Source of the DNA: Gluconobacter cadivus
Lineage (GTDB): Bacteria; Pseudomonadota; Alphaproteobacteria; Acetobacterales; Acetobacteraceae
Length of the DNA stretch: 64,000 nt
Assembly: GCF_015244745.1 (NCBI RefSeq)
Contig: NZ_JABCQI010000004.1
Span: forward strand, 186,001 to 250,000
Direction of reading: 5' to 3'
The notes beneath the pieces were generated by a model. The model had not been told where the DNA came from and did no database searches. It was given only the letters and a program-made list of their open reading frames with translations. Positions 3,920 through 6,079 of this stretch are shown here, in pieces. The position numbers and the translations under genes were made by a program. Every line of letters begins with the position of its first letter. The stretch's first letter is position 1.

Positions 3920-4341
3920 CCGCCAGACGGCTGGACGATCGCTGTGTGTGCGATGAGGATCGCATACAGGGAGGAAAGTCCGGGCTCCACGGGAAAACGG
4001 TACCGGTTAATTGCCGGCGGGGGCGACCCTAGGGACAGTGCCACAGAAAACAGACCGCCCGCCGGACTGTTTTTTCAGCGATTTATCGCGGGGAAAATAC
4101 GTTGCGGGTAAGGGCGAAACGGTGCGGCAAGAGCGCACCGCATCTCCGGCAACGGCGATGGTCACGGTAAACCCTACCGGGAGCAAGACCGAATAGGAAC
4201 GGCAGGTTTCCGCAAGGAAGCCGGGGGCTTCTCGCCCCGTCGTTCGGGTTGGTTGCGTGAGGCCTGCAGCAATGCAGGTCCCAGAGGAATGATCGTCCCG
4301 CTTTCGGGCGGACAGAACCCGGCTTACAGGCCGTCTGGCAC
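3920..4341 (+). ncRNA. rnpB: RNase P RNA (class A), catalytic subunit of RNase P
   Basis: This RNA removes 5' leaders from pre-tRNAs together with the RnpA protein. The diagnostic 5' core GAGGAAAGTCCGGGCTCC is at about 3970-3988. The 3' core ACAGAACCCGGCTTACAGGC is at about 4313-4331. The ends pair to form helix P1: GCCAGACGGC (3922-3931) is exactly complementary to GCCGTCTGGC (4330-4339). The length of about 420 nt fits alphaproteobacterial class A RNAs. Internal elements such as GGTAAGGGCGAAACGGTGCGG (P8-P10 region) are also present. The exact termini are estimated from P1. The mraZ promoter region follows about 190 bp downstream. Confidence 0.96.
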
Positions 4342-4496
4342 CCTCTGAAAATCTGTTCTTCCAGTAATTGTCCCCTCCCCCAAAGAAGAACAAAAACAGA
4401 ACAAATAACGGCAGGTATAGATCCGCCTCCGCGATTATCCCTGATAAACCCTAACAAACAGCAAAAATTTTTGTCACATTTCAACTTTTGAAAATG

Positions 4497-4518
4497 CCGC
4501 AGTTTTCTGCGGTTTTTT
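4497..4518 (+). terminator. Intrinsic terminator between rnpB and mraZ
   Basis: CCGCAG (4497-4502) pairs with CTGCGG (4507-4512) around a TTTT loop and is followed by six T residues (4513-4518). It lies about 155 bp after the end of the RNase P RNA and just before the mraZ promoter region, so it probably ends rnpB read-through and insulates the dcw cluster. The segment between (4346-4496) holds no gene; its one visible feature is an AT-rich 12-bp palindrome, CAAAAATTTTTG, at 4462-4473. Confidence 0.75.
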
Positions 4519-4531
4519 GATGATATCTGTT

Positions 4532-4561
4532 TGACGTCCCATGAAATCCCATGATATCCCA
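4532..4561 (+). promoter_or_regulatory. MraZ-box array: three contiguous TGANNTCCCA decamers
   Basis: Three directly abutting copies of TGANNTCCCA occupy 4532-4541, 4542-4551 and 4552-4561. Read on the other strand they are TGGGA repeated three times with 5-nt spacers. This matches the E. coli MraZ operator as I recall it (TGGGN repeats with 5-nt spacers in Pmra), although the orientation relative to mraZ is inverted here. A candidate -35 TTGACG (4531-4536) overlaps the first copy, and a weak -10 (around 4552-4558) would fall in the third. MraZ bound here could therefore block RNA polymerase and autoregulate the dcw cluster. The repeats are seen directly; their regulatory role is inferred. 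Confidence 0.75.
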
Positions 4562-4631
4562 ATAAAGACCAAGCCAAATAATCAGCAGCCGAATACCCGG
4601 TTTCTGAATGCAGGAAGGAGGCACATCGTTC

Positions 4632-5126
4632 ATGAGCATGTTCCTCGGCACGCATCAGAACCGTTTCGATGCCAAGGGACGCGTCTCTATTCCTGCACCT
4701 TTCCGTGCTGCCCTGAAATCTCAGGCCCAGCCGGGCGACCCGCTGGTTATTCTCCGCCCGTCCCATCTCCACCCATGCATTGAGGGTTGGACGGTTGGCG
4801 CTTTCGCCTCCCTTGCCACCCCGCTTGACGAATACGATCCATTTTCGGAAGACCACGAAGATCTGGCCGCCAGCCTCTACGCGGATGCTTATCCGCTGGA
4901 CAGCGACAAGGAAGGCCGCATCATTCTGCCCGAAACCCTGCGCACCCACGCGGCGCTGACGGATGAAGTGTCTTTCATGGGGCTGGGACGGACATTCCAG
5001 ATCTGGCATCCCGCCGCTGCCGAAGAGCGCCGTCAGGCCGCCCGGAGCCGTGCAAAAACACTTGCAACCAGCCGTCGCCCCATCAGCGCGCCCGCCGCCA
5101 CAAACACTGCGGGAGCAGCCGAATGA
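4632..5126 (+). CDS. mraZ: MraZ, transcriptional regulator of the dcw cluster
   Basis: A 164-residue product with two AbrB-like swapped-hairpin domains. The first repeat has [15 protein letters not shown] (residues 11-25) and the second [15 protein letters not shown] (about 90-104), each with the family D-x-K/E-G-R signature for DNA binding. MraZ forms ring-shaped oligomers on nucleoid-associated DNA and represses its own operon in E. coli. The ATG at 4632 is chosen because AGGAGG (4616-4621) sits 10 nt upstream; an upstream ATG at 4608 overlaps that site and would add eight unconserved residues. The C-terminal ~35 residues are rich in Ala, Arg and Ser and exceed the E. coli protein. The stop overlaps the rsmH start by 4 nt. 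Confidence 0.95.
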
Positions 5127-6079
5127 ACGCGATCACTCTGGTTCACTCGGGGCACGTCCCCGTCATGCTGCACGAGGTACTCGAAGCCCTCGCACCCCGC
5201 GCTGGTGGCCGGTATCTGGACGGTACGTTCGGTGGCGGTGGCTATGCCCGCGCCATTCTGAACGCTGCTGACTGCACCCTCGACGGCATCGATCGTGATC
5301 CGGCGGCTATCGAACGCGGAAACGCCATGGCCGTTCAGGCCAACGGGCGGCTGCGGATGCATCAGGGCACGTTCGGTGACATGGAAGCTCTGGTCGGCGC
5401 AGAAGGCCCGTTTGACGGCATCGTACTGGATCTGGGCGTCTCGTCCTTCCAGATCGATCAGGCCGAGCGCGGCTTTTCCTTCCGGAACGACGGTCCGCTG
5501 GACATGCGTATGGGTTCGGACGGTCCTTCCGCCGCCGATCTGGTCAATGACCTCAAGGAAGCGGACCTCGCGGACATTCTTTACCGATACGGCGAAGAAA
5601 AACTCTCCCGCCGCATCGCACGCGCCATTGTGGCGGCCCGTGCTGAAGCTCCGATCACCACCACCGGCCAGCTTGCCCATATCATCCGCTGCTGCGTCCC
5701 CCGCGACCGTGCCAATATCGACCCCGCAACCCGCAGCTTTCAGGGGTTGCGGATTGCTGTGAACGACGAGCTTGGCGAACTGGAGCGGGCCTTGGAAGCA
5801 GCGCCGCGCCTTCTGGCGCCGGGTGGTATTTTCGTGGTTGTCACCTTCCATTCCCTCGAAGACCGTCTGGCGAAACGTGCCATGGCTGTTCTCGCAGGAC
5901 GGACGGGAAATCCTTCCCGCTACGAACCGGCTCCGCTTCGTCAGAACGCGCCGGCTTTTTCCCTTCTCCATTCCCGCCCCCTCTCCGCTACGGACGAGGA
6001 ATCCCGGGAAAATCCGCGCGCCCGCAGCGCCCGTCTGCGTGCACTGGTCCGTAATCCCGCCTCAGGAATCTCCTCATGA
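5123..6079 (+). CDS. rsmH: 16S rRNA (cytosine1402-N4)-methyltransferase RsmH
   Basis: The 318-residue protein (also called MraW) methylates N4 of C1402 in 16S rRNA using S-adenosylmethionine. The N-terminal [13 protein letters not shown] and the SAM loop [13 protein letters not shown] (about residues 33-45) are diagnostic. Further family blocks are [37 protein letters not shown] and [14 protein letters not shown]. It occupies the standard second position of the dcw cluster and starts inside the mraZ stop codon (ATGA overlap), which indicates translational coupling. Its own stop overlaps the following ftsL-like start in the same way. Confidence 0.97.

Follow-up and report, generated by a model that had tools for sequence, protein, structure and literature searches.

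The mraZ gene of Gluconobacter cadivus is preceded by three TGGGA boxes that lie on the strand opposite to the gene, repeat with an exact period of 10 bp and interleave with the elements of a conserved candidate promoter. We propose, with a probability of about 0.85, that these repeats are an MraZ operator and that the bound protein covers the promoter and represses mraZ, rsmH and the genes that follow. That MraZ should control its own operon is ordinary in kind; the layout described here is a clear variant, kept in most of our sample of the Alphaproteobacteria.

The array lies in a 64,000-nucleotide stretch of contig NZ_JABCQI010000004.1, here called the window, whose positions 4531-4561 read TTGACG TCCCATGAAA TCCCATGATA TCCCA on the plus strand. 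Its three TCCCA boxes (4537-4541, 4547-4551 and 4557-4561) start exactly 10 bp apart, read as TGGGA on the minus strand (TGGGATATCATGGGATTTCATGGGA) and end 70 nt before mraZ. A preliminary description of this DNA had reported a threefold decamer with exact 10-bp spacing, equal to three TGGGA-N5 units on the other strand; the decamer, TGANNTCCCA, is literally present three times at 4532-4561, and the minus-strand reading was confirmed. The window thus contains the three or more TGGGN boxes at a 10-bp period that we take to define such an operator. A fourth box place at the same period (4567-4571, minus strand) has decayed to GACCA, the triple at 4547-4571 matching with two mismatches; at this offset, CCC or CCA letters were found at 72-83% in relatives.

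Downstream of the array, an open reading frame at 4632-5126 (plus strand) encodes a protein with two SpoVT/AbrB-like halves that matched Pfam PF02381 in two stretches (E 1.2e-18) and the MraZ structure 1n0e of the PDB (E 5.9e-07). It is followed by rsmH (mraW; open reading frame at 5123-6079, plus strand; Pfam PF01795, E 4.4e-94), the start of the dcw cluster, which overlaps the mraZ stop. With its two domains and its place before rsmH, at the usual head of dcw, the protein belongs to the MraZ family (PF02381). Upstream of the array, an intrinsic-terminator-like hairpin followed by a T run (4496-4513, plus strand) is separated by 17 nt from the -35 element discussed below, and the interval 4300-4700 holds three terminator-like sites compared to a shuffle mean of 0.4. 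The gene directly upstream of mraZ, on the same strand, is rnpB, which encodes class A RNase P RNA (3923-4342; Rfam RF00010, 308.7 bits, E 1.1e-101).

Conservation and orientation of the array

Conservation of the repeats in related genomes had been set beforehand as a check, and the repeats proved to be kept across the family and the class. The window itself aligned with Gluconobacter aidae at 83.4% identity in one alignment of 8,030 columns. For the family, we searched 100 Acetobacteraceae genomes, found an MraZ match in 91 and took all 91 loci; for the class, 113 of 134 genomes had a Pfam match, including three of Acetobacteraceae, and the other 110 were read. Thirteen alphaproteobacterial genomes with MraZ that were first met in a sample of the phylum were left out of the alphaproteobacterial counts. 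Strand scoring required 250 nt or more of DNA upstream of the gene, which left 89 in the family and 109 in the class after removal of L021, L025 and L180, and an array was called at 13 or more of 15 letters. Scored in this way, a TGGGA array lay opposite to the mraZ strand at 80/89 Acetobacteraceae loci and on the mraZ strand at 0/89; the corresponding counts for the other alphaproteobacterial mraZ loci were 95/109 and 1/109. Dinucleotide shuffles never reached this score (0/445 for the family, 0/545 for the class, 0/990 together), and 23 of the 198 mraZ-bearing loci scored below 13. Within the last 320 nt before mraZ at 201 alphaproteobacterial loci, TCCCA pairs numbered 186 at a spacing of 10, 84 at 20 and 35 at 30, with none at 11-16, and just one TGGGA pair occurred at a spacing of 10. 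By a lax count, many alphaproteobacterial loci have four or more boxes.

A database scan with the pattern TTGACN{1,2}CCCAN6CCCATGNTATCCCA returned at least 119 loci. Among the matches listed, 113 lie upstream of mraZ, on its strand, by 56-237 nt, and at the other six the available sequence ends 190 nt or less from the array. All but two of the matches listed are classed as Alphaproteobacteria or as unclassified Proteobacteria/Pseudomonadota, or belong to groups that we take to be alphaproteobacterial. Contigs with an alphaproteobacterial type of array and mraZ were also seen in a bin titled Nitrosomonas (L314) and in one titled Candidatus Kuenenia (L367); their MraZ proteins are 51% and 88% identical, respectively, to the best match among the matches listed, which for L367 is from a Sphingomonadales bin. 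L367 is probably mis-binned. An rnpB-like motif was found within 1 kb upstream of the array at 61 of the 100 loci with enough DNA among the matches listed (L282-L400), and an rnpB-mraZ pair is also listed for Pelagibacter (PMC2704228).

The preliminary description had likened the array to the E. coli MraZ operator, in opposite orientation relative to mraZ. Box and period do equal those upstream of E. coli mraZ, and the claimed inversion is correct because the boxes of E. coli K-12 (TGGGAAATTGTGGGGCAAAGTGGGA; NC_000913.3, L092) sit on the mraZ strand, where the array scores 14/15 and ends 12 nt (tblastn start) or 15 nt (HMM start) before the gene. In the phylum sample of 120 genomes, 52 outside Alphaproteobacteria had an MraZ match; we read 49 of these loci, 21 of them from a single family (f130), and scored them on a TGGG core within 300 nt of mraZ. 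The array was on the mraZ strand at 29/49 loci, 20-69 nt ahead of the start in 25 of them, and an opposite-strand array occurred at 4/49, all four with arrays on both strands (shuffles, 1/245). Because the strand counts differ in this way, orientation separates the sampled Alphaproteobacteria from E. coli and from most of the array-bearing non-alphaproteobacteria sampled in this one phylum. The flip had been presented in the setting of an acetic acid bacterium; it is real, but it is common to most sampled Alphaproteobacteria and extends beyond the acetic acid bacteria.

A CCAC pair 10 bp apart, that is, a pair of inverted boxes, was present at 21/49 non-alphaproteobacterial loci, starting 149-297 nt upstream (L130, L131, L135, L136, L140, L144, L145, L148, L149, L232, L240 and L242-L251). 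The same 21 loci, 16 of which are from family f130, also have gene-proximal GTGG boxes on the mraZ strand. The distal pair could be a second operator for looping or could serve a divergent promoter.

Elsewhere in the 3,288,808-base genome from which the window comes, perfect triples are absent: TGGGAN5TGGGAN5TGGGA gave one match without mismatches, and the next best had two. Within the window, four matches at up to three mismatches compare with a chance mean of 2.39, which is no excess, so only the perfect match is informative there. Across the whole genome, the same tolerance gave 74 triples versus 35 for the reversed control, and a one-pair pattern gave 13 places (one perfect and 12 with one mismatch) versus three; the 12 include a shifted register of the mraZ array and one site within mraZ. 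Looser patterns thus ran about two- to fourfold above reversed controls in this genome, an excess that may reflect further weak MraZ targets or composition bias. The strict form of the exact triple, in which A precedes boxes 2 and 3, occurred at 18 places in 15 of 95 class genomes, and 18/18 are at mraZ by coordinates (reversed control, 0).

Overlap of the boxes with the core promoter

The boxes are interleaved with two promoter-like elements on the plus strand. TTGACG (4531-4536) had been put forward as a candidate -35, and this proposal stood up: a TTGAC-like element is kept at a fixed distance, 17-18 nt from TATCCC, in most relatives. The second element is a putative extended -10, TGATATCCC (4552-4560), made up of TG at 4552-4553 and the hexamer TATCCC at 4555-4560, the end of which is formed by the first four letters of box 3. 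TATCCC matches TATAAT at 3/6 positions, so where the -10 and the box use common bases, it is the -10 that departs from its consensus. A generic promoter scan of the window reported no sigma-70 site here; we did not read this as evidence of absence, given a -10 that departs from consensus and a pair of elements brought out by conservation. A TTGACA-like hexamer with 5-6 of 6 matches stood 17 or 18 nt before TATCCC at no fewer than 51/90 family loci and at least 67/109 class loci.

The anchor CCCATGNTATCCCA was found at 12 or more of 13 letters at 87/91 family loci and 98/110 class loci. In its columns, which were selected for, the letters CCCA were kept per position at 88-100% (family) and 88-98% (class) in box 2 and at 93-100% and 88-100% in box 3; CCCA also recurs on either side of the anchored pair, at a distance of 10 bp, in both samples. 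The anchor contains TGNTAT, and therefore triples were also picked on TGGGA alone and their unselected spacers counted separately. TGNTA occupied one of the two spacers in 74/80 family and 70/95 class triples, and both spacers in 3/80 and 1/95. The decamer as a repeat unit thus holds in part: the TCCCA cores are conserved in relatives, but TGNTA is usually in only one of the two spacers. Because it is tied to a single spacer, TGNTA looks like an extended -10 and not like a part of the repeat.

A published transcription start supports the promoter reading as an independent check. Public RNA sequencing gave S. meliloti a mraZ leader of 170 nt (PMC5089854), and in S. meliloti 4H41 (L286), perhaps another strain than the one sequenced, the end of the array is 176 nt from the start codon, placing the published +1 just after TATCCC, with 7 nt between them. 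From this spacing, transcription of the dcw operon in the window is predicted to start at 4568 (plus strand) with a leader of 64 nt; mraZ leaders outside Rhodobacteraceae are typically 70 nt or less (PMC5089854). With the conserved TTGAC-17/18-TGNTAT pair and the S. meliloti start, the boxes 70 nt upstream of mraZ are in the promoter region of the gene. A function of the boxes at the RNA level was considered and set aside because they lie upstream of or at the predicted start and would hardly be in the transcript.

The array and MraZ

Thirty-six alphaproteobacterial genomes had no MraZ match, and 28 of them had an rsmH match. Three in which an HMM found a diverged MraZ (L256, L266 and L273) were removed from this mraZ-less set and two with rsmH fragments only (L278-L281) were left out, giving 23 loci; leaving out L269, with 185 nt upstream, gave 22 rsmH loci with at least 700 nt of upstream DNA. 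No array of 13 or more was present at 21/22 of these loci, and one had an array (L263), compared to 175/198 loci with mraZ (Fisher value 3e-16, which overstates independence because the genomes are related). Anchor scores at the 22 loci were 9-11 of 13. Array presence thus goes with mraZ presence, with the exception of L263, a 0.8-Mb genome in which a 14/15 array stands 212 nt before rsmH with no MraZ between them. The most sensitive HMM scan detected no MraZ in L263 and none that was convincing at the other mraZ-less loci; the L263 array is perhaps a relic of recent loss, or the site of an MraZ that was not found. Plus-strand locus L253 had an array score below 13. Two loci of family f121 without detected mraZ (L252 and L254) have a box-like triple of 12/15 upstream of rsmH on the opposite strand, perhaps in decay.

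The sequence of the boxes also varies with that of the protein in family f11 (L431-L457, L266 and L273), where arrays were picked on NGGGA whatever the first letter and L443 was left out for its truncated N-terminus. At the 13 loci whose MraZ lacks the D of DxKxR, the boxes have drifted from TGGGA to CGGGA or GGGGA and 0/39 start with T, versus 19/42 at the 14 loci that keep the D. Restricting the comparison to arrays of 10 or more of 12 letters gave 0/36 (12 loci) and 11/27 (nine loci). L454 keeps the D, yet its boxes have drifted too, and the covariation, being within one family, may reflect a single event. At several f11 loci, the mraZ strand carries a further pair of boxes about 270-350 nt upstream.

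The mraZ-less loci without an array and the drift of the f11 boxes with a changed N-terminal motif favour MraZ as the reader. Each minus-strand TGGGA would be one MraZ box, and the 10-bp period would bring all boxes to the same side of the helix, so that adjacent subunits of a single MraZ ring could each occupy one. Because the boxes overlie and span the -35 and -10 elements, bound MraZ would block access of RNA polymerase to the promoter, and the outcome would be negative feedback, with autorepression of mraZ-rsmH and the downstream genes. On balance, we also favour the view that Alphaproteobacteria share a distinct MraZ module, in which the inverted operator has merged with the core promoter so that MraZ box and extended -10 have bases in common; in at least one family, the boxes and the N-terminal DNA-binding motif of the protein would have evolved together.

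It is very unlikely that the conserved block is the dcw core promoter alone, with the CCCA repeats incidental to conservation of the -35 and -10. A promoter would account for the TTGAC-like element and TGNTAT at promoter spacing and for the fit of the S. meliloti start, but there are four CCCA places at 10-bp intervals, including one located downstream of the -10, box pairs keep to a period of precisely 10, CCC displaces favoured letters of the -10, and the block is absent at 21/22 loci without detected mraZ, where rsmH still needs a promoter. That array presence mostly tracks mraZ presence also speaks against a different reader, for example the alphaproteobacterial cell-cycle regulator CtrA or NtrX, although a CtrA motif is listed for mraZ of S. 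meliloti (PMC3616915) and NtrX is reported at the mraZ operon of R. sphaeroides (PMC7240162). CtrA and NtrX were set aside because their reported motifs (TAA-N7-TTAAC and GCA-N9-TGC) are unlike TCCCA-N5; with box and period equal in E. coli, and the strict triple at mraZ in all 15 genomes that carry one, we regard any regulator other than MraZ as highly improbable.

MraZ might instead bind the array and activate, or act only with another factor, the flip marking a changed regulatory sign. Such a change would suit the flip and the shift from the start-site region to the -35/-10, which are conserved in most of the class sample, and we keep activation in consideration because overexpression of MraZ in M. 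gallisepticum went with a rise in FtsZ that does not fit simple repression (as cited in PMC8475190). We nevertheless consider it unlikely: the boxes cover the two core elements, where steric repressors usually bind, and in both E. coli and M. genitalium MraZ acts as a repressor (PMC8475190).

Comparison with known MraZ systems

In many bacteria mraZ is the first gene of the division and cell-wall cluster, and the experimental work on MraZ that we met concerns E. coli, Burkholderia, corynebacteria and mycoplasmas. In the literature searched, which did not extend to Eraso et al. 2014, we found no published description of the alphaproteobacterial layout and no alphaproteobacterial MraZ-DNA binding or expression experiment. 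An operator recognisable from sequence in most sampled Alphaproteobacteria, its promoter and a probable start make control by MraZ testable in Caulobacter, Sinorhizobium or Gluconobacter by a few base changes. The flip between Alphaproteobacteria and E. coli, with boxes and period equal, is a natural test of how a ring-shaped MraZ (an octamer, as cited in PMC7761207) reads direct repeats and of the effect of their orientation.

The dcw leader of R. sphaeroides starts 268 nt upstream of mraZ (PMC5089854). In family f19, of which 30/39 loci were read, two with too little upstream DNA, arrays of 13 or more of 15 letters were present at 18/30 loci, 252-294 nt upstream, and arrays of 12 or more at 21/30; the family perhaps comprises relatives of R. 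sphaeroides, its tie to Rhodobacteraceae being leader length alone. Unlike the leader predicted for the window, the R. sphaeroides dcw leader/UpsM is long, with a terminator and an sRNA, and the available text of PMC5089854 makes no mention of an MraZ box, TGGG or repeats.

In Mollicutes, direct repeats of AAAGTG[T/G] lie in the mraZ promoter region (Fisunov et al. 2016, as cited in PMC8475190), as the boxes do here, with a single such place in M. genitalium; the core is AAAGTGK compared to ATGGGA in the window (PMC8475190). Levels of mraW, MG_223 and ftsZ mRNA are raised in an M. genitalium strain mutated in mraZ (PMC8475190). MraZ of B. cenocepacia shifts the DNA upstream of its own mraZ in gel shift assays, and the shifted DNA, PmraBc, has repeats at the same period of 10 nt (7 nt + 3 nt) as the window; unlike in the window, the repeats number four, have a GTG core and cover the start site, downstream of the -10 (PMC7761207). 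The boxes also resemble those of E. coli, which has three TGGGN boxes at a 10-bp period upstream of mraZ (Eraso et al. 2014, as cited in PMC8475190). The E. coli boxes share the strand of mraZ, lie downstream of the -10 (PMC7761207) and end 12-15 nt short of the start; those of the window occupy the other strand, overlap the -35 and -10 and leave 70 nt to the start. The window therefore does not have the layout of E. coli and Burkholderia, and that arrangement is a trait of the studied cases that is not as such required for being an operator. If our reading is correct, one regulator would work with two arrangements of its site, which covers the start site in E. coli and Burkholderia but the -35 and -10 in Alphaproteobacteria.
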